Positions 283-15,212 of a stretch of 64,000 nt of DNA are shown one piece after another. Location of the stretch: positions 1 through 64,000 of the forward strand of contig CASFPH010000006.1 in the NCBI GenBank assembly GCA_949296645.1, read 5' to 3'. How positions within the stretch are numbered: the first letter of the stretch is position 1; each line of letters begins with the position of its first letter. Made by a program: the position numbers and the translations under genes. Under the pieces are notes generated by a model. The model worked only from the letters and a program-made list of their open reading frames with translations, ran no database searches and was not told where the DNA came from. This DNA is from an uncultured Bacteroidales bacterium. Its GTDB lineage: Bacteria > Bacteroidota > Bacteroidia > Bacteroidales > UBA932.

Positions 283-2787
283 TCATTTGTAATCTTCCCA
301 ACCGGTGCCGTTGAATGTACCCCCTTCTATGATGATATTTGGATTTGCTTCATCATAGTATGCAGGGGTAACGACAAGGTTTCCGTTGAATATACCACCC
401 TTGATGACAAGTTTGCCGTTTTTCTTACCGTTATCACCTCCAAATTCAACTCTTCCGGTTATATGGCTGTCACCTTCCACGGTTACTGTAACACCTTCGT
501 AAGAAGCGTATGAAAATACGTCAAATGCAAATGCATCATTCGTTTTGGCAATAAGTTTTGTATCCCTGATCACTACATTGCCGTTGTTGTTTGACATCAG
601 ATAAGGAATATCTTTTGAACCGTCCTCACTGAAGCTGTAAATTGACATATTGTCCAGAGTCAGATTACTGTAGTTCTGGAAAAGCATTGAGGCATTACAG
701 TCGCTACCAGGTCTTATCACACCGTTCCTGAATGTTATGTTCGCCCCTTTCTCCAGATGGAAATTCTGGCTTACAGTACCGGCAGAGCCATGAAGTGTAT
801 TGTCAAGAATCCATTTGTGTCCGCCCAAATCTATATCCAGTGCAGACTGGGAACCGTTACCGTTGTTATAGATACCGACACCGGCACCTTCGAAATCCCT
901 CTCCATAACCACCTTGACATCGGCATGAGGTGCAAGGCAAGAAAGTGGCGTAGGATCCGAGAATGTTCCAGCGGAAACGAGAATCTTACTGTCTGATGCA
1001 TATTTGGCGCTTGTATTGAACACAAGAACATCCTTGACGGTGCTTACTCTACCGCCGTTTATATTCACTGTACATTTTCCATATGAAGGATCTACCATTA
1101 TACCCGAATTACCCTGGTTGCCGGTACCATCACCCCAATCTCCGGTATCACCGTCATTTCTGCTGTACAGATTAGCATTCCCGGATATATTGAGTTCACC
1201 TCTCCTTATTGAGACAGCACCAGCTGCTCCGTTTACGGTACCTCCAGTAATGTTTGCCACTCCGGAATGAGGAAGATAAATCGCATAGTCTGAAACTGAT
1301 ATAAGCTCTCCCCCTTCAATGTTTATCACTCCGTTTGTCAGCACATCGGTACCGTTACCTGAGACTGCATACCAACCGGCTTCAATACGTCCTCCTTTCA
1401 TTGTGAATTTACCTCCGTCGGAAAGTCCTACTCCGAACTGGCCGTTATTGACAGGATCATTACGTACAGCATATATGTTACCGCTCTCCATTACAAGATG
1501 TCCGTCTCCTATCACTTCTACAAGGCAATAACCGCATGTGCTGCTATAATCTTCCGTAGCCACAATAGAACCCTCGCCGGTTTCATCCGAAATAGTAAGT
1601 TCACCGTAAACCTTGATATTTCTTCCGGTTGAATTGGAGGAATTTATCTTCTTGCCATTGAGATCGATTTTTGCTGACACACCCGCCGGTATGCTCAATC
1701 CGTTATCCAGTACGATATCCTGCTCAAGCGTATATGGAGTTCCATTGTTCAACGCATTCTGGAGCTCCGCTACGACAACTGCATTTTCCCTTATAACGTT
1801 TTCAGGCTCATCGAAACGGTCTTCCACAATCACTTGGATTTCTGCGGAATTGGTAAAGAAAATACCTATTACGGTCGTAAGTTTGTTTTTCTGTACCGGA
1901 ACATCAGAGATCGAACGTACCCCTATCTGTACAGTGGCAGCATCATCGCTGTAAACGGTTACATCAAACGCATAGGAAGGAACTGCATCGGATGCAAAGA
2001 TATAGTCGTAACCGAGAACATATGCTCCGGTTTTTGTTTCTGTTCCGACTTTCACGTCTTCCGTTTCGGCAGTGAACATATATTCTCCAGCCGGCGTATC
2101 TCCGGTTGCCTTCTCAGTCAAGGCATTGAATGTATCAGGCACGTTGTATGCAGCTCCGTAAACTACTTTACTCTGTTTAGGCATCTCTCCGTTCTGAAGA
2201 TTTCCGCTCAACTTGTCAGTTGCAACAAGCCTGATTTTACCGAACGGACGCTTAAGTACGACATCCGAAATCTGCTGATCTGCTTGTGTAAGATCTACTT
2301 CCTTGACCGCATAATAAGCATCGGCCAAATCCTCTCCTGCATGCCTGTCCGCAGCATCTGCATAAGTAACGGCTGTCAGTTCATCCGCATTGTAAACCAG
2401 ATTGTCCTTACTGCCCTGATTGACGAAATCCGCCCAGAACACGAATTTGTATTTCTTCGCAAGCAGTCTGGCCTCAAAGGTAGTACCGCTGAAATCATCT
2501 TCAGTAATCACATTCCTGTAGGCCAGGCGTGGAGTTTCACCTTCGTCATCAGTCCACACTTCAAGAATATATCTCAAATCATACAGTGCTTTGTCAAGAT
2601 TATTGTATCCTCCAAGATGAGACTGAAGTTCAGGCTGTGCATAAGTTGACAACACGTACGGAATTTCAGCTCTGATGCTGAAATCCACTTCTCCGTTTAA
2701 CGCGGGACCATGCTCCTCGAGCTGGCACGAACCAAATGTCATCGCCACCAAGGCAAACGACATCATTCCCAAATAATGTTTCTTCAT
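283..2787 (-). CDS. Fimbrillin-like lipoprotein with C-terminal beta-helix (adhesin A)
   Basis: Predicted surface lipoprotein of 834 residues. The start is the ATG at 2787; a TTG two codons earlier is less likely. The signal peptide ends in a lipobox (FGSC) followed by QLEE, acidic residues as in Bacteroidota surface-export signals. Residues up to about 330 form the module shared by five genes here: 'LRYILEVW', 'FVFWADFV', then the block 'KRPFGKIRLVATD', closing with 'VEDRFDEP'. This resembles Mfa2/FimB-type fimbrillin relatives (DUF6562-like). The remainder is Gly/Asn-rich with short repeated strands (for example 'INGGRVSTV', 'IKGGIFNGN', 'IEGGTFNGT'), typical of a right-handed beta-helix. 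Likely an adhesin or fimbrial tip; ligand unknown. It is the last gene of the run 10010 to 283. Confidence 0.8.
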   Translation of the reverse strand: MKKHYLGMMSFALVAMTFGSCQLEEHGPALNGEVDFSIRAEIPYVLSTYAQPELQSHLGGYNNLDKALYDLRYILEVWTDDEGETPRLAYRNVITEDDFSGTTFEARLLAKKYKFVFWADFVNQGSKDNLVYNADELTAVTYADAADRHAGEDLADAYYAVKEVDLTQADQQISDVVLKRPFGKIRLVATDKLSGNLQNGEMPKQSKVVYGAAYNVPDTFNALTEKATGDTPAGEYMFTAETEDVKVGTETKTGAYVLGYDYIFASDAVPSYAFDVTVYSDDAATVQIGVRSISDVPVQKNKLTTVIGIFFTNSAEIQVIVEDRFDEPENVIRENAVVVAELQNALNNGTPYTLEQDIVLDNGLSIPAGVSAKIDLNGKKINSSNSTGRNIKVYGELTISDETGEGSIVATEDYSSTCGYCLVEVIGDGHLVMESGNIYAVRNDPVNNGQFGVGLSDGGKFTMKGGRIEAGWYAVSGNGTDVLTNGVINIEGGELISVSDYAIYLPHSGVANITGGTVNGAAGAVSIRRGELNISGNANLYSRNDGDTGDWGDGTGNQGNSGIMVDPSYGKCTVNINGGRVSTVKDVLVFNTSAKYASDSKILVSAGTFSDPTPLSCLAPHADVKVVMERDFEGAGVGIYNNGNGSQSALDIDLGGHKWILDNTLHGSAGTVSQNFHLEKGANITFRNGVIRPGSDCNASMLFQNYSNLTLDNMSIYSFSEDGSKDIPYLMSNNNGNVVIRDTKLIAKTNDAFAFDVFSYASYEGVTVTVEGDSHITGRVEFGGDNGKKNGKLVIKGGIFNGNLVVTPAYYDEANPNIIIEGGTFNGTGWEDYK

Positions 2788-2937
2788 ATTCAAGTATATT
2801 ATATATTGTTGAAAATCATCTAAAGATCAGCACAATGCAAGGTTTTATATTTAATATGTAAATTTACGGATACCGCACCGGACTCATTTTACGATATCAG
2901 GACAAACTTTTTCGATAAAGCAACACTAGAAGAAGAA

Positions 2938-2965
2938 TGGGAGAACGGAAAAATCCGCCCTCCCA
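2938..2965 (-). terminator. Hairpin between adhesin genes B and A
   Basis: TGGGAG (2938-2943) pairs with CTCCCA (2960-2965), with an inner GG/CC pair. On the minus strand it is followed by ATTCTTCTTCT, a poor T tail. It lies just past the stop of adhesin B. It could partly terminate transcription before adhesin A or protect a processed 3' end. Confidence 0.4.
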
Positions 2966-2993
2966 TCACAACGCTATTAATATAATTGGAGTT

Positions 2994-5372
2994 TTAATCT
3001 TTAACTATTTCATAAGGATATGTAGCATCTCCTGTTTCAACGAACTTGTAACCATCTTCCGCACACCAGTCGCTTCCGTCATAATTCTTCGGCATTGAGC
3101 TGTATTTACCGCCCTTAAGGATAAATGCTCCGTAAGGATTCCCTGTTATATCATCGTCTGAAGCATAACAGCAAGGTATTCTGTCCGAATAGAATTCACC
3201 GCTGATTACCTCTATAACTCCAAGGCTTGCTGCGTAGAGGGAATAAAATGCATCCTGCCTGCCAGGCTCGGAATTCCTAGCATAAATACTTACGTTTTCG
3301 AGGATCACATGCGCCCCCTCAATCGAAGCAACTCCACCCTGGACACCTTCCACAACAGCATCCCTTATGGTCATGCTTCCTCCACCGCTTGCTCTTACAC
3401 AATATGCCCATGCCCCGTATTTATTTGAGGAATATGATTTTATTGTTCCTCCGGTTATATCGATCCGGCCATTGCCTGCAACTGCGAAATTATATGACGA
3501 TACATTCACATCATTCAAAGTCATCACCGCATTTTCATCATAATTGGCAAAAACGGTTCCTCCGCCTATGAAGTCAGCGTTCCAGGTACCCCCATTTACA
3601 ACCAAGTTACCGTAATTCTGGATAAAATTCCTTTTTATATTCACCTCTCCTTTACCGTCCAAAGTCAGAGTACTTCTATTCTCTATCTTGAAACTTTCTT
3701 CTTCGGAAGTTATTTTTCCGTCAACAGTTATGGATGCTGGTTTTTCAAACACCAGACTTTCTATTCCGGAAAGTTTCAGTTCCGTACCCTCATTCACGAT
3801 TATGGCACCACCTTTTTCGGCGACTTCGTTTATCGCTGAAGAAAATTCAGTCTCACTTTCCACATAATGCATTCTGAAAACTTCATAAACCGCCGGATCA
3901 TCACTTACTTTGGATGAATAGTATCCGTCAGCCAAGAAATTATCATCTACTCCGGTAGGTTCGGTTCCGGTTTTGGCCGGGTCACAGTTTTCGAAACTTC
4001 CGCCCTTGACAATAATCTTATTAGGCTGGTTATCCTGCAGGTTAATAACAAAATACACTCCGTTGTACGGGGCAGCCACCCGGTAATAACCTCCGTTTAT
4101 CTCTATTTCAGCATTGTCCTTTGCCTGAATGCAGGCACCGCGTCCGAAATAAGTTCCTCCATTCAACTCCACTTTGGAATTGCCTGTTGCCCATACTGCA
4201 TAATTGGAGCCGTCGGCTGTTGCCTTGATTTCACCTTCACCGTTTATTATAAGAGTACCACCGTCAACTCTTATCGCATCCTGATTAGGCACCTGGCTTT
4301 CTATAGTCTTGCCATTAAGATTTACAGTCAGAGTCTTGCCCGGAGACACCACAAGAGCAGGCATGTCCGAAGTGAAAATACAATCCTGGTCAAGAGTGAC
4401 TTCCCCTCCGTTTTTCGCTGCATCAAGAAGAGCCTGGTTTATATAAATCTCCGGTTCATCGAATTCATCTTCCACCATGACATCCAGGGAACCTTCATTC
4501 GTATAGAAATTACCTATCACCGTCGTAAGTTTGTTCTTATGTACAGGTATATTCGTCACATTGCGTACACCGTAATCATCTACCTGTACATCGAACGAAT
4601 ATGCCGGACTACCATCGGAAGCAAAAACATAATCCACTCCTAGAATATAAAGCTTGCCCTTGGACTCACCACCTACCGTTACTTCTTCTTCATACGGCTC
4701 GAACTGATATGACCCGGCTTCAATCTCATCTGCCAGAACTTCCCCTGACAAAACATTATATCCGGACGGTACTTTAAGTCCTCCGGCATATGTCACTTTT
4801 GTCATTGCAGGCGCACCAACCATGTTCTCCGCTGCATCCGTGGAAACCAGTCGGATCTTGCCGAACGGACGCTTCAGCGTAACCTGCTCCGACAAACCTA
4901 CCTCGCTCAGATTGAAAACCCTGACTTCACAGTATGCATCCGCATATTCGTTTCCGGCTTTCCTGTCTGAAGATATCTTCACTTCATCAAGCCCCGACGA
5001 TGTATTATACAAATTGTCTGACGTCTGACCGTTCTCCGTAAAATCCGCCCAGAACGCGAATCGGTATTCCTTTGCCAACAGTCTTACATCGAATGTAGCC
5101 GGTTCGCCAACTTCCACCGTCTTGGCCTCTCGGTAAACTACTTCTTCTCCATCATAGACTTCAAGTATATATCTCTGATCATATACACTCCTGTCTACAT
5201 TGCTTACCCCGCCTTCACCGGAAGTATACGTCGACAGTACTCCGGGGATTCCAGCCGTTACGGTAAATTCCACTTCTCCGTCTACTGCCGCACCGCGCTC
5301 CTCGAGCTGGCACGAACCAAATGCCATCGCCACCAAAGCGAACGACATCATATTAAGATTGATGAATTTCAT
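2994..5372 (-). CDS. Fimbrillin-like lipoprotein with C-terminal beta-helix (adhesin B)
   Basis: 792-residue predicted surface lipoprotein, paralogous to adhesin A. The signal peptide with lipobox FGSC is followed by QLEERG. The shared N-terminal module contains 'DQRYILEVYDG', 'FAFWADFTENG', 'KRPFGKIRLVSTD' and ends at 'VEDEFDEPE' near residue 310. Residues about 320-780 are repeats such as 'LNGGTYFGRG', 'INGGYYRVA', 'ITGGTIKSY' and 'LKGGKYSSM', one strand or turn per repeat, as in pectate-lyase-like beta-helices. The gene begins 21 bases after the stop of adhesin C, so the two are co-transcribed. A 55-base stretch coding for its signal peptide is almost identical to that of adhesin A. Confidence 0.8.
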   Translation of the reverse strand: MKFINLNMMSFALVAMAFGSCQLEERGAAVDGEVEFTVTAGIPGVLSTYTSGEGGVSNVDRSVYDQRYILEVYDGEEVVYREAKTVEVGEPATFDVRLLAKEYRFAFWADFTENGQTSDNLYNTSSGLDEVKISSDRKAGNEYADAYCEVRVFNLSEVGLSEQVTLKRPFGKIRLVSTDAAENMVGAPAMTKVTYAGGLKVPSGYNVLSGEVLADEIEAGSYQFEPYEEEVTVGGESKGKLYILGVDYVFASDGSPAYSFDVQVDDYGVRNVTNIPVHKNKLTTVIGNFYTNEGSLDVMVEDEFDEPEIYINQALLDAAKNGGEVTLDQDCIFTSDMPALVVSPGKTLTVNLNGKTIESQVPNQDAIRVDGGTLIINGEGEIKATADGSNYAVWATGNSKVELNGGTYFGRGACIQAKDNAEIEINGGYYRVAAPYNGVYFVINLQDNQPNKIIVKGGSFENCDPAKTGTEPTGVDDNFLADGYYSSKVSDDPAVYEVFRMHYVESETEFSSAINEVAEKGGAIIVNEGTELKLSGIESLVFEKPASITVDGKITSEEESFKIENRSTLTLDGKGEVNIKRNFIQNYGNLVVNGGTWNADFIGGGTVFANYDENAVMTLNDVNVSSYNFAVAGNGRIDITGGTIKSYSSNKYGAWAYCVRASGGGSMTIRDAVVEGVQGGVASIEGAHVILENVSIYARNSEPGRQDAFYSLYAASLGVIEVISGEFYSDRIPCCYASDDDITGNPYGAFILKGGKYSSMPKNYDGSDWCAEDGYKFVETGDATYPYEIVKD

Positions 5373-5393
5373 ATGTTTTTGGTTTTAAAATAT

Positions 5394-8300
5394 TTATTCC
5401 AAAGAGTCAAACGGTAAACCGTAAAATTCGAAAATGCAGCAATTTTCCCTCAAGGATGCCGGAAACGAATTGTTCCCGTCCAATACCGACTTTACAAATA
5501 GTCTTGCTTCTTCAGTCAAATCGGAAATACTACCATTTTCCAGGCTTTCAGGTGCAAACGCGCTGTCAGCCCATACCTTTACAGCCCCCCTATTGTCACC
5601 GTTTTCCAGTCCCCAGGACTCAAATACATTTCCGGATATCATATACTCACCAGGTGTAGTAACGGAAGAACCGTCGCCGCAACCCTGTATTACAAGTGCA
5701 TGACTCCCGATATTCTTCAGAGTATTTCCAGTCACGCTCAACCTATATCCAGTCACATTCGGAACTATATATATCCCGTATTTTTGCGGAGTAGTAGCTG
5801 CCAAAGAAGCATCAATAATATTATCAGATATGTCTATATCCGATGTATATGAATTGTCATCCGTCAAGCCGTAAGTCTTGACTGTTAGCTGGGCGGCAGT
5901 GTTCCCTTGAGCCACCAGTTTTCCACAGGCTGACAATTTAAGTTCTCCTTTTATTGTAAATCCCTTTATCAAAGTAGACTCCGGTATACTTCTTTCATAA
6001 TTCGAATGCGTACCAAATGCAACACTCCCATTTATTACTACCTTTCCATCAGCAATCAGAGAAACTCCTGTTTTGCTATATGTATATAGGGAGAATGGAG
6101 CATATTCCCCCTCCTGAATATAAAATGTAGTATTTGAAGCAATTTTCAATTTGTTCAAATCAGAACCGCTCTCTACAAAAAATATACTTTCCAATGTATT
6201 ATTTCCGTTCCTGACATTGCTCTCATCAAGCTCGCCATTATCAAGAATGCGACCCAGAATTGTTTCTGCATTGGAATCTTTCGTACCATAATAACCGGTT
6301 TTCTGATCTACGGTTATCTGTACATTCTTTGCAGTATTATCATGAAGAGCAGCGGCATTTGCAGCTCCGGCTATGCCTCCAAGATCCCTGTATCCTCTTA
6401 TTTTAATGTCTGTTACCGTATTTCCACTTATTTTTCCACCGTTGTCAGGTGCTGAATATCCAACAATACCGCCTGCCTTGTCACCGTTATCGTAATTTCC
6501 GGACAAGTGATCCGGTACGGCAGTGATAATGGTATTTTCAACACTGCAACCGGTCACAGTACCATAAATATATCCTGCAATACCGCCAACCCATCTGTTG
6601 CCTTCGACTTCAGCATTCCTTACAGTTACATTTTCAATACTTTCACTCGGAAATATGGAACCTGCAACTACACCTGTACCACCATTGTTACCATCTACCT
6701 GATGGATGATTTTCACATTTTCTATTACCAGATTCCTGACTGTTCCGTTTAATGCACCGAAGAATCCGCCGGCCTCAGTTACATCAAGTTCCGATATCAA
6801 CAGATTGCTTATGGTTTTCCCGTCACCGTCAAACGTACCCTTGAATCTTTTCCCTGCTGTACCTACACCTACGGGTTTCCATTCTACTCCTCCCAAATCA
6901 ATGTCATTTGAGAGTTTTATAAAAACACCATTGAATTCATTACCGGCCCTTACCAGTTGCGAAAGTGTCTGCAGTTCATCAATATTGCCAATCAATTTCG
7001 GGTCCGACTCCGAACCTGCCCCTGTATAAGGGAAACCTTTTCCGAACAATGTCATACCTTTCATTTCGATACTTCCCCACCCTTCTGGTGCATTGACAGT
7101 CCACGGCTCATCACAGTCAACCCACACCTTGTTCGACTCTTCAAAAACGCATGTCCCATCAAAGGCAAACTCCGGTGTCTCCATAACTCCTGACCCCTTG
7201 CCTACATTGACTGCTCCCCATGCGTTGCCGTAGGTTCTGAGACCTGTTGCGCTTACTTCAGAACCGTTTACTATAATTGCAGCCTTCCGGCAATCATGGA
7301 TTGTAACATCAGTTATCTTTACGCTTTTTGCACGATACACCGAAATACCGTTGCTTGAAACTCCTTCTGATGGTTGTGTTACCGTCAGATTCCTCAATTC
7401 CACACCGTCGCCTCCAACAACAATTACGTTCTGTTCAGAATTCCCGCTAATCGAATGTCCGTTTCCGTCAAACAAATAATCGTTATGGTTGATACGGAAA
7501 CAGGCTCCGTCCGTACCCGTAGCTCCTGTAATATCGGACGTAAGTATCACACCATGATTTTTTGACGCATCATACGACAGAACCTCCTGAAGCCTTGGTG
7601 CGTCTCCGGCACCCCAGTAGATTCTGCTGTCTGATCCTTCTGATATGCTTATATTTTCAGGTGAAACCCTTCCGAATATCTTAACATTGCCGGCCCGCAC
7701 TGTCAGAGCGTTCAATTCAGCCTCTTCGGCCACTGTAAAAGTATTTTCTCTGGTCGTTACATCCAAGGAGCCGAATGAACCGCTCACCTCTGCATCCCCG
7801 GCAGGAAGATTAATAATCATCGTACCTTTGCTTCCGCCTGTATTATTAAGTTTAAGTACGCCTGAAAAACTGTCGGAATACACACCCAAAGTACCGTCTT
7901 CAGCTTCATAGCCATTGAGTTCAAGTGTAATCTCGGAAGATAACCCGAACAGGTTTATACCTGTCCCACTTTGAAATACGGTTTCATCCTGCAATCTGAA
8001 CCCGATTTTTTCAGGTACTGATGACATGCCTGAATATTCTTCCAGCTTTCTGTTTACTTCCTCTATTGATGATATTGTTATATAATTGGGATTGTCATTT
8101 TCAAAAGGATCCTCCACAACAATCGTTATATCGCCTTCATTAGAATAGAAGTTGCCGACAACGGTTGTAAGCCTGTTTGCATAAACCGGTATCCCGGACA
8201 AGGAACGTCTGCCTATGTTCTGTATTCTGTCCTTATCGGCATAGACGGTAACATCCATTCCATAAGCTGTTTCTGGTTTTGAAGCAAATACATAGAAATT

Positions 8301-9068
8301 CGCAAGCAGGTAACCTTCAGTCTCTGCCTTGTTCACCGAAGCATTTTCATGTACTGCATCAAAATATAATTTTGAGGATTTGTCGGCGGAAAGCGATCCG
8401 CTTGATTCTCCGGTAAGTACATTATAGTTTGACGGGAATATGGCACCGTCAAATTCCACCTTCACCGAAACGGGCCTTTCGGTCTGCGAATCAAGAACCT
8501 TGTCTGTTGCCAGCATACGTATTTTCCCGAACGGCCTCTTCATACTAATTTTACACGTTTGGCCGGCTTCGGAAAGATCAATTTCCTCAACATGACAATA
8601 TGCATCGGCAGCATCTGATGCAAGTTGCTGCAAATCCGCCGCATCGCTATACGATATATCATCAAGACCGGAAGACGTATTATAAAGATTATCGGATTTC
8701 TGACCTTCCTTTACAAAATCCGCCCAAAATGCAAACCTGTATTTTTTCGCAATCAGCCTCACCTTGAAATCCACACCGGCACTGAACCCGTCAGCTATGA
8801 ATTTTTCATCCCTGCAAACAAGATTATCGCCATCATATACCTCCATTATATATCTGAGGTCATATTCAGAAGAGTTTACATTTCCTGCCCCTCCGAAATG
8901 GGAGAAAGCATCTTGTGCTGCATAGGTAATCACACCCGCAGGAATTTCCGCGGAAACCACAAAATCGGTTTCTCTTTCACTGGCCGACTCTCTGTCTTCT
9001 AACTTGCATGATACCAGTGTCATAAGAAATACAGCCGGTAACAATAGTATTAAATTACGATATTTCAT
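5394..9068 (-). CDS. Giant fimbrillin-like lipoprotein with beta-helix and GLUG-like repeats (adhesin C)
   Basis: 1,224-residue predicted surface lipoprotein, the largest of the paralogs. ATG at 9068 is preferred over the GTG just before it. Lipobox LVSC is followed by KLEDRE. The common N-terminal module shows 'LRYIMEVYDG', 'FAFWADFVKEG', 'KRPFGKIRMLATD' and ends at 'VEDPFENDNP' near residue 330. Then come a parallel beta-helix section, GLUG-like repeats around residues 715-900 ('FKGTFDGDGKTISNL', 'GGFFGALNGTVRNL', 'GGIAGYIYGTV'), and a second beta-helix section with 'ISGNVFESW'. Likely a long modular adhesin or glycan-binding stalk; no catalytic motif is recognised. It is the first large gene after the AraC-type regulator, 93 bases downstream. 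Confidence 0.8.
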   Translation of the reverse strand: MKYRNLILLLPAVFLMTLVSCKLEDRESASERETDFVVSAEIPAGVITYAAQDAFSHFGGAGNVNSSEYDLRYIMEVYDGDNLVCRDEKFIADGFSAGVDFKVRLIAKKYRFAFWADFVKEGQKSDNLYNTSSGLDDISYSDAADLQQLASDAADAYCHVEEIDLSEAGQTCKISMKRPFGKIRMLATDKVLDSQTERPVSVKVEFDGAIFPSNYNVLTGESSGSLSADKSSKLYFDAVHENASVNKAETEGYLLANFYVFASKPETAYGMDVTVYADKDRIQNIGRRSLSGIPVYANRLTTVVGNFYSNEGDITIVVEDPFENDNPNYITISSIEEVNRKLEEYSGMSSVPEKIGFRLQDETVFQSGTGINLFGLSSEITLELNGYEAEDGTLGVYSDSFSGVLKLNNTGGSKGTMIINLPAGDAEVSGSFGSLDVTTRENTFTVAEEAELNALTVRAGNVKIFGRVSPENISISEGSDSRIYWGAGDAPRLQEVLSYDASKNHGVILTSDITGATGTDGACFRINHNDYLFDGNGHSISGNSEQNVIVVGGDGVELRNLTVTQPSEGVSSNGISVYRAKSVKITDVTIHDCRKAAIIVNGSEVSATGLRTYGNAWGAVNVGKGSGVMETPEFAFDGTCVFEESNKVWVDCDEPWTVNAPEGWGSIEMKGMTLFGKGFPYTGAGSESDPKLIGNIDELQTLSQLVRAGNEFNGVFIKLSNDIDLGGVEWKPVGVGTAGKRFKGTFDGDGKTISNLLISELDVTEAGGFFGALNGTVRNLVIENVKIIHQVDGNNGGTGVVAGSIFPSESIENVTVRNAEVEGNRWVGGIAGYIYGTVTGCSVENTIITAVPDHLSGNYDNGDKAGGIVGYSAPDNGGKISGNTVTDIKIRGYRDLGGIAGAANAAALHDNTAKNVQITVDQKTGYYGTKDSNAETILGRILDNGELDESNVRNGNNTLESIFFVESGSDLNKLKIASNTTFYIQEGEYAPFSLYTYSKTGVSLIADGKVVINGSVAFGTHSNYERSIPESTLIKGFTIKGELKLSACGKLVAQGNTAAQLTVKTYGLTDDNSYTSDIDISDNIIDASLAATTPQKYGIYIVPNVTGYRLSVTGNTLKNIGSHALVIQGCGDGSSVTTPGEYMISGNVFESWGLENGDNRGAVKVWADSAFAPESLENGSISDLTEEARLFVKSVLDGNNSFPASLRENCCIFEFYGLPFDSLE

Positions 9069-9161
9069 CACAATAAGTATAAAAACTGTTTAAAGTTAGC
9101 AAGAGATCCTGAAGCCGCCTTTACGATTTTTTTACTTATTTTTACAAAAAGACAATGGTTA

Positions 9162-10010
9162 TCAATGTTCCATACGGAGTTCGCTCGGTGTTTTGTGCCA
9201 GTTCTTTTTGCAGAACGTGGTGAAATATGCTGAAGACGAAAAACCGTATTTAAAGGCAAGCTCCGTAAAACTCATTTCGGTAAGCTTTATATCACGCAGG
9301 ATAAGATCCTTGCGACGCTCCTTAAGCCAAGTGGAAGCAGAAACCCCGAAAGTACGCAGAAAATGCCTGTTGAAAGTCACGGTCGTCATTCCTTTCTTTT
9401 CAGCCAGTTCGCTGACCTTGTCTGTCTTTCTGTAATTGGCAAACACGAAACTCTTGAATTCAAAATCACCCCCCAGCAAAGGCCGGAAAAAAGAAGACAG
9501 AACATTTTTCGAATAATATTCGTTAAGGTAAATGAACATTTCCTCGACTTTAAGATCATAGTAATGCGAACAGTATTTCCTTGATCCTATCAGTTCCGGA
9601 AGCAGCGCCAGCTGACGGTATAACTTGTCCGACATCCTCAGGAAAGAATGCCCTTCCGCATTGCTTTCCGGAGATTCTCCGGATCCGTCGAGGCCGTTCA
9701 GAAAATGGCGTATGCAATACAACGCATCAGGATTAAACTTGTAAAGCAGAAGTCTGGTAGAATCGGAAGTCACGGTAACCGTATTTTCCTTGCCCATGGG
9801 CAAAAGAAAAAACATATATTTTCCGAATTGCTGACCGGTTTCCTCACATGACGGAGAAAGACCTGTACTTCCCTCCAATATAAAAATCAGGGCAGACATA
9901 TCTTCGGAACAGAATCTGAAACTATCCCCCTTATTTCCGTCATAAACAATTATATATGACGGAAATACGGATCTGCATGCAATGCAGACCCTTCCCATAT
10001 CATCATTCAT
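9162..10010 (-). CDS. AraC-family transcriptional regulator
   Basis: 282 residues. The N-terminal half (to about 165) resembles the beta-sandwich or cupin-like sensing half of AraC regulators but has no recognised ligand motif. The C-terminal 100 residues hold the double helix-turn-helix: first helix pair at 'VSELAEKKGMTTVTFNRHF', second at 'FTELAFKYGFSSSAYFTTF' with the usual 'KTPSELR' end. It lies on the same strand as and directly upstream of the three large adhesin genes, and downstream of the candidate small RNA, so it is the likely regulator of the locus. No ligand can be named. Confidence 0.9.
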   Translation of the reverse strand: MNDDMGRVCIACRSVFPSYIIVYDGNKGDSFRFCSEDMSALIFILEGSTGLSPSCEETGQQFGKYMFFLLPMGKENTVTVTSDSTRLLLYKFNPDALYCIRHFLNGLDGSGESPESNAEGHSFLRMSDKLYRQLALLPELIGSRKYCSHYYDLKVEEMFIYLNEYYSKNVLSSFFRPLLGGDFEFKSFVFANYRKTDKVSELAEKKGMTTVTFNRHFLRTFGVSASTWLKERRKDLILRDIKLTEMSFTELAFKYGFSSSAYFTTFCKKNWHKTPSELRMEH

Positions 10011-10165
10011 GACTCGTCAGTTTATGACATGGGACAATACTCTGTTTTCTTCTTTTCCGATAATGAAATTAATCCGCATGGGGAACCTGTAAATCCTCTT
10101 TTACACATAATTGATCTGATTTGTGCGTAAACTATATGTCGGGATTGCGGCAGGTTTCCCGGAAC

Positions 10166-10194
10166 AAAAAGCGCAGACGAAACATTGTCTACGC
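10166..10194 (-). terminator. Rho-independent terminator of the candidate small RNA
   Basis: On the minus strand GCGTAGAC (10187-10194) pairs with GTCTGCGC (10171-10178), 8 bp with one G-T pair and an 8-base loop, followed by five T (10166-10170). It lies 156 bases upstream of the AraC start, so it would end a short transcript or attenuate read-through into the regulator. Confidence 0.65.
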
Positions 10195-10388
10195 CTTAGG
10201 TCCTAGGAAAACCCACCAATACAGACAAGTTCCGCCCACGCATCAGCGCAGGCATTTACTCGCTTATTCGTGTATTGGTTTTGAAATTTCCTAGGTTTCA
10301 GGCCATTCCGAATAATAGCAAACGCTGGTTAAAAAATTATATTATAAATCTTGTTTTCACATATCCCGGATGCATGAACATTTTGTTC
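10166..10388 (-). ncRNA. Candidate structured small RNA or structured leader
   Basis: The minus strand here has a TATATTTG promoter box, a rod-like foldable core and a Rho-independent terminator, with no convincing open frame. Nested pairings in the core are GCCT/AGGC (10300-10303 with 10193-10196), CCTAGGAAA/TTTCCTAGG (10287-10295 with 10202-10210), ACCAATACA/TGTATTGGT (10271-10279 with 10215-10223), and an apical hairpin GCCTGCGC-TGAT-GCGTGGGC (10246-10253 with 10234-10241). Internal loops separate the stems, as in 6S-like RNAs. The 5' end is inferred from the promoter box. The alternative is a regulated leader of the AraC-type gene. I do not recognise the family. Confidence 0.5.
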
Positions 10389-10392
10389 ATGC
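10372..10392. promoter_or_regulatory. Perfect palindrome, candidate operator
   Basis: GCATGAACA (10372-10380) and TGTTCATGC (10384-10392) are a perfect 9 bp inverted repeat with a TTT centre. It sits immediately downstream of the minus-strand TATATTTG box, on the expected transcription start. There is no T tail, so a terminator is unlikely. This is the typical place for a dimeric repressor to bind; the binding protein is unknown. Confidence 0.5.
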
Positions 10393-10394
10393 TA

Positions 10395-10402
10395 CAAATA
10401 TA
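10395..10402 (-). promoter_or_regulatory. Bacteroidota -7 promoter box (TATATTTG)
   Basis: CAAATATA on the plus strand reads TATATTTG on the minus strand, an exact match to TAnnTTTG. No clear TTTG was found at the -33 position. It would drive the candidate small RNA and possibly the AraC-type gene. Confidence 0.5.
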
Positions 10403-10431
10403 TAAATTTTATCTTTTGTACATAAAAACAT

Positions 10432-10462
10432 AAAAAAGGGGATTGCAGATTTAGCAGCCCCC
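10432..10462 (-). terminator. Terminator of the short-fimbrillin operon
   Basis: On the minus strand a GC-rich stem (GGGG with CCCC, extended inward by GC pairs, loop near 10447-10453) is followed by six T. It begins 33 bases past the stop of the fimbrillin-like gene 10495-11511 and separates that operon from the regulator and large adhesins. Confidence 0.8.
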
Positions 10463-10494
10463 TCACCGGACATAAAGTCTTCGACCACGCCGAA

Positions 10495-11511
10495 TCAATT
10501 TTCCACTTTTTCATCGTTGTCAAATGCATCATCGACTATTACGTTTACAGTACCTGAATTTGAATAGAAATCACCTATAACTGTCGTAAGTTTACCCGAA
10601 ACGACAGGTATTCCAGAGAGATTCTTTGTACCAAGGGCAAAAGACCTGTCTTCATCGCCGTATACGGTAACATCCATAGAATATGAAGGAATCTGGTCAG
10701 CCACGAAAAAATAGTCGAATCCTAGCAGATACACATTATCGTAAATGTTTTTCCCGACCAGTGCGTTTTCCTTTATGACCTTGAAATCGAATTTGCCTGC
10801 CGATCTGGTATCTCCGCTCATTCCCGCTCTGTCCGTAAGCACATTATACGTATTTGCAAACTGTATGTTCTTGAAATCTATTGTCGCCCATTTCGGTTCC
10901 GCAGGTTCAAGTTCACCGGAATCGACAATATCCGTTGCCAGCAGTCGCAATTTCCCGAAAGGTCTTTTTAAAACTATTTTCCTCTTGCTTTGTAAAGAAA
11001 CTGATTCTACCAGTTCCACCGCACAATAGGCGTCCATATCATCGGAAGCAAGGTCACCGGCTGAACTTATATCATCTGAATATCTGATATTCTGCAGATT
11101 GCCCTCTGTAACATAATGAAGATCCTCTGACATGTCCTCTCTCACGAAATCCGCCCAGAATACAAGATAACAAGGCAGTTGTTCCAGCCTCAACCCGAAT
11201 GACACCGGAGTTACAGCAAAATCTCCGTCCACCGTCTTTATTTCTCTGTAAAGAAGTTCCGGAGAATCGTCCTTGGACCATACTTCAACTATATATCTCA
11301 GATCGAATTCGGCAGGATCAACGTTCAAAGCACCTCCGAGATGTGAAAATGCATCTGATGCGGAAGCTTTTGAATAGTTGTCCATCGGATCAGGTATACC
11401 TACGGTCACGTTGTATTCTTCTCCGCGGCTTGCAGGATTTTCCGATTCGCATGACGATACCGTCAATACGGCAATCATGGCCATCAACAGAAAATTTATA
11501 TTTTTCATCAT
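10495..11511 (-). CDS. Short fimbrillin-like lipoprotein (module only, D)
   Basis: 338 residues from ATG 11511, with A/G-rich AAAAAGAAG in front; an upstream TTG is rejected. Lipobox VSSC is followed by ESENP. It contains the whole module found at the N terminus of the three giant adhesins: 'LRYIVEVWSK', 'LVFWADFVRED', 'KRPFGKLRLLATD', 'KLTTVIGDFYSN'. It stops at 'VDDAFDNDEK', exactly where the large paralogs change into beta-helix. It is probably a fimbrial subunit, anchor or assembly partner of the Mfa/FimB type. It is last in the operon starting at 13928 and is followed by a strong terminator. Confidence 0.8.
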   Translation of the reverse strand: MMKNINFLLMAMIAVLTVSSCESENPASRGEEYNVTVGIPDPMDNYSKASASDAFSHLGGALNVDPAEFDLRYIVEVWSKDDSPELLYREIKTVDGDFAVTPVSFGLRLEQLPCYLVFWADFVREDMSEDLHYVTEGNLQNIRYSDDISSAGDLASDDMDAYCAVELVESVSLQSKRKIVLKRPFGKLRLLATDIVDSGELEPAEPKWATIDFKNIQFANTYNVLTDRAGMSGDTRSAGKFDFKVIKENALVGKNIYDNVYLLGFDYFFVADQIPSYSMDVTVYGDEDRSFALGTKNLSGIPVVSGKLTTVIGDFYSNSGTVNVIVDDAFDNDEKVEN

Positions 11512-11538
11512 CTTCTTTTTTATAGTTTGACACCTCAA

Positions 11539-12561
11539 TTATCCTATAGGCACCACTATCTCATCATCGAAACCGGGATCTATGCCTATCTCCCCGTCAT
11601 CTATGTTTCTTGTAAGGAAATCTCCCCTTATTATGGTCAGTCTGTTACGCTGAAGATTCACTTTCAGGTCCTTTACTGTAGTTATTGTCTTACCGTCCGC
11701 AGTTTTCACGCTGAAATTGAGGTAATAGAATGTATCTTTGTCATCTATGAAAACATAGTCCGATGCAATAATTGCTTCTTCACCTTCGACCGTCTCCACT
11801 ACCTGATAATCATATGAAACATTTGCCTTGAAATCATCAGGGACGCCGTAATACACATTGTATCCCATAGGAAAATACAATCCGTAGACAGCCTGGGATA
11901 TCGAAGGCGCGACGGAAGGATATATATCCTGGGCATAATCGGCCTTGTATTTTGCAACATCCGTAGTAACCACCTGATAAACCGCGAACGGACGTTTTAC
12001 GGGAATTTCCATATTGTATTCCGCAAAACGTTCGTTTGCATAAGGGATAAGATCCATGTTCTTCTGTGCGGAGAATGCGTCCTTCGTTGCATCATATCCT
12101 TTATATGAACCGTCCACAAGATTCACACGTATTTCATGCAGATTGGAAGTATCGTAATAATAGTCACCATCCGTTCCTTTCTTAACAAAATCCACCCACA
12201 CCATCACGCTGTACATCCCGGCATGAAGGGAAATTTCCTCATCTATCCTGTAGATACCGTTCTCTATTATCGTTTCTTCCGTCTTCACTATTCTTTTTAC
12301 AAGATTACCCACTGTTTCCGCGTATGAATCGGACACCTTGTATATCTCCACTATATATCTTATGTCGAAACGTGAGGACAACATATCCTTATAAGTCTGT
12401 ATTATAGGGTCCTCATCATTCAAATCCATATCTATGGACAATGAAAGGTTGACATCTATTAGTGACGGGTCAACCCCTGGTCCCTCCGTATACTCGTGAA
12501 CAAATTTGCAGGACGACATGAAAAGCAGGATTCCAGCAAGCATGAATAATATTTTTTTCAT
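11539..12561 (-). CDS. Short fimbrillin-like lipoprotein (module only, E)
   Basis: 340 residues. ATG 12561 is chosen because a strong AGGAGG lies 7 bases in front and the product then begins with a lipoprotein signal peptide (lipobox MSSC). Module landmarks are 'FDIRYIVEIYK', 'VMVWVDFVKKG', 'VKRPFAVYQVVTTD' and 'RNRLTIIRGDF'. It is the most diverged of the five paralogs and ends at 'DPGFDDEI'. In Bacteroidota pili such lipoproteins act as anchor, accessory or tip subunits; which one applies here is not visible. It lies between the DUF3575 protein and paralog D with 11 and 27 base gaps, so one operon. Confidence 0.8.
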   Translation of the reverse strand: MKKILFMLAGILLFMSSCKFVHEYTEGPGVDPSLIDVNLSLSIDMDLNDEDPIIQTYKDMLSSRFDIRYIVEIYKVSDSYAETVGNLVKRIVKTEETIIENGIYRIDEEISLHAGMYSVMVWVDFVKKGTDGDYYYDTSNLHEIRVNLVDGSYKGYDATKDAFSAQKNMDLIPYANERFAEYNMEIPVKRPFAVYQVVTTDVAKYKADYAQDIYPSVAPSISQAVYGLYFPMGYNVYYGVPDDFKANVSYDYQVVETVEGEEAIIASDYVFIDDKDTFYYLNFSVKTADGKTITTVKDLKVNLQRNRLTIIRGDFLTRNIDDGEIGIDPGFDDEIVVPIG

Positions 12562-12568
12562 ATCAGTA

Positions 12569-12574
12569 CCTCCT
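12569..12574 (-). promoter_or_regulatory. Strong Shine-Dalgarno (AGGAGG) fixing the start of paralog E
   Basis: CCTCCT on the plus strand reads AGGAGG on the minus strand, 7 bases before ATG 12561, overlapping the end of the DUF3575 gene. Strong Shine-Dalgarno sequences are uncommon in Bacteroidota, so this one is informative and excludes the in-frame start at 12630. Confidence 0.75.
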
Positions 12575-13928
12575 ATTTTCTGAAATTGAAAGTATACACC
12601 ACACTTATTCCGGCCTTGGTAATACCCCAATAGCCCTTCACTCCGGAATCATAACATATCCCGTCCTTTACATTATAAAAGACATCATAATGTATGTTTG
12701 CATATCCTGCACCGACTGTGAACTCCAGAGACAGAGACGGCAGAAGCTTCCATGAGTACCCGTAGCTGATTCCGGCACCCATAAGAGGCCTGTTCTCGGT
12801 ATCCTGATAACGGTTGTCATTCGACAGAGCCACATTGAACCATGCAAAATTTCCATTCAGTCCTACAAAATGTCCTTTCGAGAAAGAACCGAACCAATAC
12901 CTAAATTCAGGCTGGAACCCCAATGCCCTGAGGCGATAATTGTTTTTAATTGTATAAGGACTGTATATTACAGGAAAATCAAATGAAAACCTGTCCGTTA
13001 TCCTTGCCTCTACCCCTGCATTTGCAACGCCAGCGCCAAGAAGAAGCACGTTTGTCTTTACGGCAAACATCGGAGAATCCTTTTTCACGGACGGCTGCCT
13101 GTCATGAACATTTTCTACTGATGATCCGGCTGTTTTTTCCGGTACAGTTTCGGGTACATATATTACTGTATCCTTGGGAGTCTGCGGCAATGTATCTGAT
13201 ATCACCCGCTCCATCCCGGTCTTTGCTTCCGACGAATCCCTTGTAATCTCAACCATCAAGGCAGCTTCCTTTTCCGTACCCTCGTCTGCAACCGCATCTT
13301 CCAGAACATCCTTTTCATACTTGCCGTAATTTTTTACATTCCCGGAATAGACTATACTTATCCTGGTATAGCGGAAAGCCGGGAAAAAAGTTTTTCTCAT
13401 ATAATTATAAGGGCGGCCTCCGCGAAGATCCATCAAATGCTTGTTTCTGCTGTCAACAAGCACACCGTGTTCCCAAGTCTCTTCCGGTTCGTTATCCAGT
13501 ATATACAAGACCTCTTCCTTATACTGCATACCCGACGTATCCACTGCATTTCTCAATTCTTCCCATGCAACACCCCCGTCCACACATTGTATAAGTGAAT
13601 CAGGTATGTCCGACATTTTCTTCAATACACTCTTTACCGTCTCATTTCGGAGCATGTTCAACTTTCTGTTACTTGTCACATCCCCTTCCATCGATGCTGA
13701 AGAGAAAATCTCAACCCTCCTGATCGAAGCATCGGGAGATGCATTGAGACTGTCAAAGAAATTCTTAAGCTTGCGGGCCGATGACAGATTATTGAATAAT
13801 GACGTATCTATAGAGCTTGCGCCGATGGCATAACGGAACATGTCATTGCTCTTCCGTTCCTGTGCCTGCAAAGGCAGCAGGAAATGCAGGAACAGAATGG
13901 CAGACATGTATTTATGAAATCTGTTCAT
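12573..13928 (-). CDS. DUF3575 outer-membrane protein with OmpA-like N-terminal part
   Basis: 451 residues with a cleavable signal peptide ending in LQAQ. The N-terminal half holds an OmpA-C-like pattern ('VEIFSSASMEGDVTSNRKL' and a following Arg-rich helix), which in that family contacts peptidoglycan. A Thr/Pro/Ser/Glu-rich linker lies near residues 210-280. The C-terminal half ('FAVKTNVLLLGAGVANAGVE', 'FRYWFGSF', 'GAGISYGYSW') is DUF3575, an outer-membrane barrel-like domain. DUF3575 genes commonly accompany Mfa/Fim-type fimbrial genes in Bacteroidales. It is the first gene of the short-fimbrillin operon. Its likely role is an outer-membrane platform or anchor. Confidence 0.85.
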   Translation of the reverse strand: MNRFHKYMSAILFLHFLLPLQAQERKSNDMFRYAIGASSIDTSLFNNLSSARKLKNFFDSLNASPDASIRRVEIFSSASMEGDVTSNRKLNMLRNETVKSVLKKMSDIPDSLIQCVDGGVAWEELRNAVDTSGMQYKEEVLYILDNEPEETWEHGVLVDSRNKHLMDLRGGRPYNYMRKTFFPAFRYTRISIVYSGNVKNYGKYEKDVLEDAVADEGTEKEAALMVEITRDSSEAKTGMERVISDTLPQTPKDTVIYVPETVPEKTAGSSVENVHDRQPSVKKDSPMFAVKTNVLLLGAGVANAGVEARITDRFSFDFPVIYSPYTIKNNYRLRALGFQPEFRYWFGSFSKGHFVGLNGNFAWFNVALSNDNRYQDTENRPLMGAGISYGYSWKLLPSLSLEFTVGAGYANIHYDVFYNVKDGICYDSGVKGYWGITKAGISVVYTFNFRK

Positions 13929-14057: not shown

Positions 14058-15212
14058 TCATTCAAGATTGTCCATGAAAAACCCTGTCTTCCTGTAATCC
14101 TCATTAAGCACAGAAAATTGAGGCTGCATTATATATACCGTCAATCCGCTATGATAATTTATCCTGAACGAATAAGGGTAACCTGACATGAACGAAGGCG
14201 TAGCAGCTGCATATAGCACTACTTCCTTCATAAGTTCATCAAATGTTTCCAGTGAAGCGATATTTCCTCCGGTTACCGCAAGCAGATATTCACGCAGGTC
14301 GAAAAACATGTGAATCATATTCCTGTCAAAATGCTGTATTCCATCGGGGTCTGAAATCAGATACTTCCCGTTTTTCACGATATTTCCCGTTTCTCTGGCA
14401 AGCAATCCTATCTTATCAAGGTCCAATACGGAAACCGTTGCCGATCTCCGTGCGCCAGACTGCCCGTCACAATGTGCAAAATAAGCTTCTGCAAATCCCT
14501 TGAGATCGAAAATATCACTGAAAAGTCTGTAGAGTTCGTCTTCATAGATTTCGACAAACCCTGGTGAAACTATCTCAGCTGATGAGGCTATCATGTTTCT
14601 GGAGACATTTCTAAGGCTATACGCTACTTCTATACCGGCCATATGGCACATCTCGAAAATCATAAAATCATATTTAGAACCGTCAGGAAGTCTCACAGCT
14701 TCTGAAAAATCAGCAAATTCCATTTCATCCGACCCGTCCATAAAAAGAGATCTTGTCGAAGCCGCATAACCTTCAGGATCGGAAAATGCACCTGGAGGAA
14801 GCCACCCCGTGGCATGAGAGAAGCATAGAAACCCATAAGAATCAGACTTGTACATACTGAATATTTCCCCAATGACGTCTTTAAGCACATCAGGATCCGA
14901 CGAATTCAAATCCCCGTATTTCTTCAGCGTTACAATCCCGTCAGAGGTAATTTCCAGGAGCTCGGATTCGGCACTGCTGTAATCGGCAAACACAACCAGT
15001 CTGTTTCTTTCATAATCCGATTTCACGAAACCTGCATGCAATGCCGAAATCTTAGACTTGACTTCATGTGAAAGATTGTTGTCTCCTGCAAGGTAAACTA
15101 TCAGAGTGCGGCAAATATTTCCGGAAAAGTCATCCGCACCTGGCCTTTTCACGCAAGAAAAAAGGTAAAGAACAGATATAATATGCAGAAAACAAAAACG
15201 GCAGTTTCTCAT
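14058..15212 (-). CDS. Clostripain-like (C11) cysteine protease lipoprotein
   Basis: 384 residues, lipobox with Cys20 (YLFSC). The fold landmarks of peptidase family C11 are present: 'LIVYLAGDNNLS' near residue 37, catalytic His133 in 'SHATGW', and catalytic Cys189 in 'FEMCHMAGIEVAY'. C11 enzymes (clostripain, fragipain) usually cleave after Arg or Lys and mature by self-cleavage. It lies 129 bases upstream of the fimbrillin operon on the same strand. Because Bacteroidales pilins are matured by Arg-specific proteases, a processing role for the nearby lipoproteins is a reasonable guess, not shown. Confidence 0.85.
   Translation of the reverse strand: MRNCRFCFLHIISVLYLFSCVKRPGADDFSGNICRTLIVYLAGDNNLSHEVKSKISALHAGFVKSDYERNRLVVFADYSSAESELLEITSDGIVTLKKYGDLNSSDPDVLKDVIGEIFSMYKSDSYGFLCFSHATGWLPPGAFSDPEGYAASTRSLFMDGSDEMEFADFSEAVRLPDGSKYDFMIFEMCHMAGIEVAYSLRNVSRNMIASSAEIVSPGFVEIYEDELYRLFSDIFDLKGFAEAYFAHCDGQSGARRSATVSVLDLDKIGLLARETGNIVKNGKYLISDPDGIQHFDRNMIHMFFDLREYLLAVTGGNIASLETFDELMKEVVLYAAATPSFMSGYPYSFRINYHSGLTVYIMQPQFSVLNEDYRKTGFFMDNLE

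Follow-up and report, generated by a model that had tools for sequence, protein, structure and literature searches.

What kind of surface structure is built by lipoproteins that share one N-terminal head but differ in whether a long rod follows it? This question is raised by a locus at the start of contig CASFPH010000006.1 (assembly GCA_949296645.1) of an uncultured Bacteroidales bacterium, of which we analyzed positions 1 to 64,000 (here referred to as the window). The draft genome (2.24 Mb in 60 contigs) contains five DUF6562 lipoprotein genes; all lie on the minus strand of the window locus, and the genome-wide count of DUF6562 proteins is likewise five. Since the first base of the window is also base 1 of the contig, the DUF6562 array may run on past the contig end. 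In the direction of transcription, a DUF3575 gene is followed by an anchor-type head-only gene, a second head-only gene, a structured RNA, an AraC-type regulator gene, and genes for tailed proteins of 1,225, 792, and 836 amino acids (aa). A first-pass annotation had described five paralogs with a common head, two of them head-only and three continuing beyond the same hinge, and the open reading frames (ORFs), the PF20200 (DUF6562) matches, and the hinge strings bear this out. The reading that we favor, with moderate confidence, is that of a shaftless surface display system resembling type V fimbriae, with one anchor and several rod-bearing adhesins.

Heads with a predicted fimbrillin fold

PF20200 was matched by all five heads with E values of 1e-36 to 1e-85 (125 to 288 bits against a cut-off of 25), and because these scores far exceed the cut-off, the similarity of the heads is beyond chance. 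By inspection, each of the five proteins carries a lipobox Cys and can be regarded as a lipoprotein precursor. The first-pass annotation had placed the heads with the Mfa2/FimB-type proteins; at the level of sequence families this did not hold, since only DUF6562 was matched and none of the five proteins hit Mfa2 (PF08842) or Mfa_like_1 (PF13149) at E 0.1. The genome's own PF08842 and PF13149 matches are located on other contigs. A search of NCBIfam yielded no match for the five proteins, and DUF6562 was not mentioned in the open-access literature that was searched. The family was found in 27 of 150 genomes of the same family and in 17 of 295 genomes of the same order, and it was rare outside the order: only 2 of 395 genomes sampled across the phylum carried it, both inside the order.

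Searching PDB sequences with the head profiles returned no relative, and the head fold therefore rests on prediction. A six-sequence anchor alignment used as a query led to nine related loci, and the head of the anchor-type protein (11539 to 12561) was modeled with AlphaFold2 (AF2) on a 36-sequence alignment of the window and these loci. The resulting model had a predicted local distance difference test (pLDDT) score of 83.4 and a predicted template modeling (pTM) score of 0.80. Bacteroidales fimbrial or putative adhesion proteins, including Mfa2 (5nfi) and Mfa3 (5nf4), made up 21 of the 22 best Foldseek matches; the sole exception was a leucine-rich repeat protein. VIA Z scores were 12.2 for BT1062 (3gf8) and BT2657, 11.1 for Mfa2, 10.6 for Mfa3, and 9.6 for FimA, against a background of about 6 to 8 for unrelated proteins. 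The model of the full 836-aa protein (pLDDT of 84.1, pTM of 0.64) contained a head that matched the same fimbrial proteins as the anchor head. The DUF6562 head is therefore predicted to adopt the two-domain type V fimbrillin fold of BT1062/Mfa2, Mfa3, and FimA, by model for these two heads and by sequence homology for the other three. In this respect, AF2, Foldseek, and VIA agree with the shared fimbrillin-like fold that had been proposed from the sequence.

Tails and their rod folds

The ORF of the 836-aa protein (283 to 2793; PF20200 E 1.2e-46) divides at residue 333 into a non-anchor head (1795 to 2793) and a tail of 503 aa (283 to 1794). Residues 331 to 834 of its model matched right-handed beta-helices, with VIA-align Z scores of 20.8 for pertactin and 19.0 for PfbA, and the tail is accordingly modeled as a right-handed parallel beta-helix. 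The 792-aa protein (2994 to 5372; PF20200 E 4.3e-36) has its boundary at residue 310, and its non-anchor head (4443 to 5372) is followed by a tail of 482 aa (2994 to 4442) in which beta-helix-like repeats were seen by eye. In the 1,225-aa protein (5394 to 9071; PF20200 E 6.8e-39), the boundary at residue 329 separates a non-anchor head (8085 to 9071) from a tail of 896 aa (5394 to 8084). GLUG-like repeats were visible by eye in this tail, and the weak Pfam match (E 0.018, 15.9 bits) remained below the cut-off of 20.5 bits. Of the beta-helix and GLUG extensions proposed earlier, the helix of the 836-aa protein is thus backed by its predicted fold; the GLUG match remained below the Pfam cut-off. 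The window tails matched no sequence family, and the likeness to pertactin and PfbA is one of fold only. Across the family, Pfam assigned Beta_helix, GLUG, lamin-tail, Ig-like, and other domains to 58 tails, and because of this diversity the rod is considered variable.

Anchor-type and non-anchor heads

To place these proteins among their relatives, 41 loci were mapped, namely, the window and 40 stretches from related draft genomes, some of which came from one genome. Head/tail boundaries were set with hidden Markov models and simple rules, and, apart from figures derived from the tree, counts refer to sequences and not to independent events. A tree built from 123 heads grouped the anchors in one clade of 36 heads with 100% support in the Shimodaira-Hasegawa-like approximate likelihood ratio test (SH-aLRT); this clade includes two proteins with anchor-like ends that had been labeled otherwise by rule. 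None of the 36 heads carried a tail, and all tails were found on the non-anchor type. Judged from this tree, the five window heads are of two kinds, anchor and non-anchor, and not of one interchangeable kind as the first-pass annotation had assumed.

The usual order of a locus was DUF3575, a head-only protein of about 330 to 400 aa, zero to four short heads, and then tailed proteins of about 520 to 1,315 aa; the head-only gene directly followed DUF3575 in 31 of the 41 loci. Head-only and head-plus-tail genes occurred together in nearly all related loci, so that the pairing predicted from the window recurs among its relatives. Well-supported branches required the tailed label to change no fewer than 12 times, but about 9 is the safer figure because three entries counted as head-only had been cut short, either at the edge of a contig or region or by a stop. 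On the evidence of the tree, tails are gained or lost repeatedly on non-anchor heads.

The window anchor (PF20200 E 1.3e-85) lies in an ORF of 363 aa (11539 to 12630) with a likely ATG at 12561, about 12 nucleotides (nt) past the DUF3575 stop. Its C-terminal end forms the strand GIDPGFDDEIVVPIG, and the conserved pattern of this strand in anchors is GxDPxFDxEIxIxI. A C-terminal aromatic plus hydrophobic strand was scored in 35 of 36 anchors; among the other head-only proteins the figure was 8 of 27, and several of these 8 were truncated or ended before the hinge. The second head-only lipoprotein (10495 to 11538; 347 aa; PF20200 E 2.6e-42) belongs to the non-anchor type and ends no more than 8 residues past the hinge aromatic. 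Its orthologues in three relatives are likewise head-only, and a relic tail was looked for 3′ of the gene but none was found.

Exchange of rods at the hinge

The hinge strings VEDRFDEP, VEDEFDEP, VEDPFEND, VDDAFDND, and DPGFDDE were all present in the five proteins, and F, Y, or W occupied the hinge position in 57 of 59 tailed DUF6562 proteins. Ten aligned fimbrillins from the genome's other loci have an invariant W near their end that is followed by 8 to 14 residues, and profile alignment placed the DUF6562 hinge motif, weakly, on this W. We infer that the hinge is the DUF6562 counterpart of the aromatic motif at the C terminus of canonical fimbrillins; therefore, the rods would begin at the point where canonical subunits have their terminal donor strand.

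Related loci provided several cases in which sequence similarity broke off at this position. Two tandem genes in L088, which sit in a single 1.6-Mb contig, have head DNA that is 98% identical over a stretch of about 900 bp ending 5 aa short of the hinge, and their tails are unrelated. Between L069 and L070, a gene of 641 aa and a counterpart of 340 aa diverge 5 aa before the hinge; the short counterpart stops cleanly, and the next gene follows about 33 bp further on. The reverse case was found between L070:399-2909 and L104:7509-10724, whose tail DNA is 90% identical over 836 bp starting 0 to 1 aa from the hinge, while their heads are unrelated. The rod segment shared by these two genes comprises about 280 residues with 88% protein identity, and related segments occur in L072 and L089. 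Overall, 5 of 15 internal breakpoints fell within 6 aa of the hinge, compared to fewer than 1 of 15 estimated for a uniform spread in genes of this length.

The window proteins showed the same discordance between head and tail as their relatives. The head of the 836-aa protein was closest to L116:16758-19835 (65%), and its tail was closest to L070:10427-12922 (58%), whose head reached 47%. For the 792-aa protein, the tail was 60% identical over 482 aa to that of L070:7953-10394, whereas the heads were 39% identical. Taken at the level of DNA and protein comparison, the rods are shown to be modules that recombined at the hinge. The earlier idea of interchangeable rods stands with regard to exchange at the hinge, but not with regard to anchor subunits that carry them.

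Cleavage site, putative donor strand, and C11 protease

In Porphyromonas gingivalis, the shaft and tip proteins undergo cleavage behind an Arg that closes strand beta-1, while the anchor Mfa2 remains uncut, and Mfa1 cannot polymerize without its last residues (PMC5789003). An Arg/Lys site at the end of beta-1 was found in 40 of 57 scorable tailed DUF6562 heads versus 6 of 31 anchors, where it was mostly off-position; the window anchor (11539 to 12561) has no such site. The window and its close relatives, which form one clade, have Tyr at this position. A subunit combining the cleavage site with a donor strand was sought by pattern rule and inspection; there was none among the five proteins, and none was evident in relatives. 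Likewise, no shaft subunit was recognized in the window or the related loci. Because no subunit clearly has both site and strand, a shaftless type V-like display is favored.

The protease that the first-pass annotation had noted nearby is a C11 (clostripain-family) protease encoded at 14058 to 15212 on the minus strand (PF03415 E 7.9e-23), just upstream of the DUF3575 gene and just beyond the annotated range. Compared to 6mzo, its catalytic His and Cys are aligned, but it has FEMC in place of FDAC and, hence, Glu for the conserved S1 Asp adjacent to the catalytic Cys; in C11 this role is taken by Asp177 (PMC4850288). Linked C11 orthologues were found only in loci of the Tyr-site clade, and the L116 and L119 copies, which accompany this type of locus, read FETC and FEMC, respectively. 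The genome carries one more C11 copy, on contig 42. A matched change of the site (Arg to Tyr) and the protease (S1 Asp to Glu) is attractive but based on one clade; because the co-occurrence is confined to this single clade, it does not constitute independent support. A gene for a small outer membrane beta-barrel protein (PF13505; 15344 to 15991) adjoins the C11 gene.

Neighboring genes and intergenic RNA

The DUF3575 outer membrane protein and the AraC-family regulator named in the first-pass annotation were, like the protease, confirmed by Pfam. The DUF3575 gene (12573 to 13928, minus strand; PF12099 E 1.3e-39) is the first gene of the operon, and its product has a beta-barrel C terminus and an N-terminal half that is OmpA-like by eye. 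DUF3575 lies upstream of the anchor gene in most related loci. The genome has four DUF3575 genes, each of which heads a fimbrillin-type cluster (three besides that of the window), and this linkage therefore ties the window locus to canonical fimbrillin loci. The three other clusters (L125, L126, and L127, on contigs 22 and 12) have giant last genes of 644 to 1,160 aa, and two of them are divergently arranged on contig 22.

The AraC-family regulator gene (HTH_18; 9162 to 10010, minus strand; PF12833 E 2.7e-15) has orthologues in the L116, L117, and L118 loci. Between it and the second head-only gene lies a structured RNA of about 170 nt whose 3′ hairpin resembles a terminator (10160 to 10330, minus strand; fold z of −5.9). 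A sequence with 87% identity was found at the same place in L116 (L116:12173-12398), and 12 of 22 predicted consensus pairs showed changes on both sides. The RNA had no match in Rfam and is present in a single copy in the genome, and relatives (L133 to L138) are located beside unrelated genes in other Bacteroidales. It looks like an unclassified Bacteroidales small RNA that is probably independent of the adhesins. Inverted repeats of the kind that flank invertible promoters were limited to one 21-nt pair within the AraC gene. Promoter and terminator scans gave counts at or below chance, and the Bacteroides −7 pattern was not more common than in shuffled sequences.

Weighing of a proposed shaftless display system

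As judged from sequences and models, all subunits of the locus are shown to be lipoproteins with a fimbrillin-type head, of which one is a conserved, never-tailed anchor, while the other type carries a rod or has lost it. In the mechanism that we propose, the anchor (11539 to 12561) would stay lipidated in the outer membrane and would insert its conserved C-terminal strand (GxDPxFDxEIxIxI) into the head of an adhesin with a rod, which would thereby be kept at the surface. The strand would be given directly to the adhesin, so that a polymerized shaft would not be needed. In most relatives, proteolysis behind the Arg/Lys that ends the first strand would open the receiving groove, in the manner of P. 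gingivalis fimbrillins. Because Arg/Lys is replaced by Tyr in the window clade, its adhesins may stay lipidated and uncleaved, or they may be cut by a protease of altered specificity, possibly the neighboring C11 enzyme. The rods may bind other cells, mucus, or glycans, and the DUF3575 protein may act as the outer membrane partner of assembly or export. Tentatively, and with less confidence than for the display system itself, this can be extended to a universal anchor that docks repeatedly re-tailed rod adhesins by strand donation, with the Arg-to-Tyr switch accompanying the S1 Asp-to-Glu change in C11.

Several points weigh against the display system. The window tailed heads lack the Arg/Lys site (TYA, TYT, and TYA) because its residue is Tyr, which leaves the canonical cleavage step unsupported here. 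The donor-strand pairing of anchor and adhesin is one that we infer, and a shaft could come in trans from the genome's other fimbrillin loci. TM-scores of the anchor head against single PDB chains were only about 0.4 to 0.5. The profile-profile match between DUF6562 and the genome's other fimbrillins was weak (E 4e-4, probability of 35%), and hhalign gave no meaningful alignment of the anchors alone with canonical fimbrillins. Finally, the counts of cleavage sites and C-terminal strands depend on simple pattern rules.

Two other interpretations appear improbable to a similar degree. The locus could encode a true polymeric type V fimbria, in which the 10495-to-11538 protein would be the shaft, the 11539-to-12561 protein the anchor, and the tailed proteins alternative tips. 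The gene content mirrors that of fim/mfa clusters (an anchor, a head-only protein, and long last genes), and the presumed shaft has a predicted fimbrillin fold and was kept head-only in three relatives. However, a hydrophobic strand past the hinge aromatic is missing from this protein (...DDAFDNDEKVEN), a TRA/TKA motif is absent as well although an SKA lies close by, and many related loci consist of an anchor and one or more tailed genes without a second head-only protein. Alternatively, the proteins might be independent surface lipoproteins, each with its own lipid, in which a beta-helix adhesin or a domain that binds glycans is carried on a fimbrillin-fold head acting only as stalk or spacer. 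The retention of the lipobox without a cleavage residue in the window heads and the resemblance of the tail to adhesins and polysaccharide lyases are in line with this idea, but it leaves aside the dedicated, never-tailed anchor gene with its conserved terminal strand that accompanies the adhesins, the Arg/Lys site of most relatives, and the DUF3575 linkage seen in other fimbrillin loci. That the head/tail breaks merely reflect fast tail evolution or draft misassembly is very unlikely: some loci do lie at contig ends of draft genomes, and a conserved head with a fast tail could mimic 3′ breakpoints, but neither accounts for tail DNA that is 90% identical on nonmatching heads, for tandem genes within one large contig that share heads and not tails, or for a counterpart that stops cleanly just ahead of the next gene.

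Discussion

The proposed shaftless display system has its closest parallel in the type V fimbriae of P. gingivalis (Mfa1 to Mfa5 and FimA to FimE), with which it shares the fimbrillin fold, lipoprotein precursors, and long terminal subunits (PMC5789003). As with Mfa2, the anchor has no cleavage site, and Arg/Lys marks the end of beta-1 in most relatives. Here, however, the proteins belong to another Pfam family, Tyr replaces Arg in the window, no shaft was recognized, and beta-helix/GLUG rods are C-terminal tails exchanged at the hinge. BT1062/Mfa2-type anchors (3gf8 and 5nfi) are the closest solved folds of the anchor head, but sequence identity is only about 10%. The tips Mfa5 and Mfa3 resemble the tailed proteins in having domains that add to the two-domain core or replace it (PMC7835359, PMC5789003); Mfa5, however, combines von Willebrand factor and immunoglobulin-like domains with a type IX C-terminal signal, where the tailed proteins have a fimbrillin head with beta-helix or GLUG rods. 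Pertactin and PfbA share the rod fold but differ in their routes of surface anchoring. Domain rearrangement and allelic exchange also diversify Kgp and the fim alleles of P. gingivalis (PMC5266723), where whole alleles or adhesin domains are exchanged, whereas here the exchange uses a fixed head/tail joint in a tandem fimbrillin-fold family.

Because the window has no cleavage site, no shaft was found, and a polymer is only hypothetical, we do not file the locus as a type V fimbria. It would work like type V fimbrial proteins and by its predicted fold belongs with them. What appears to be new is a fimbria-like variant in which rods were swapped repeatedly at one joint and which seems to lack the usual shaft subunit.

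These results place DUF6562, an uncharacterized Pfam family, in the predicted fimbrillin fold and separate its anchor heads from its adhesin heads, and many "hypothetical" proteins of gut and termite-gut bacteria turn into an adhesion system that can be tested. Should the anchor clamp rods directly, type V strand exchange could display single adhesins, beyond the building of polymers, and the locus would constitute a naturally modular scaffold whose heads and rods follow separate evolutionary paths.

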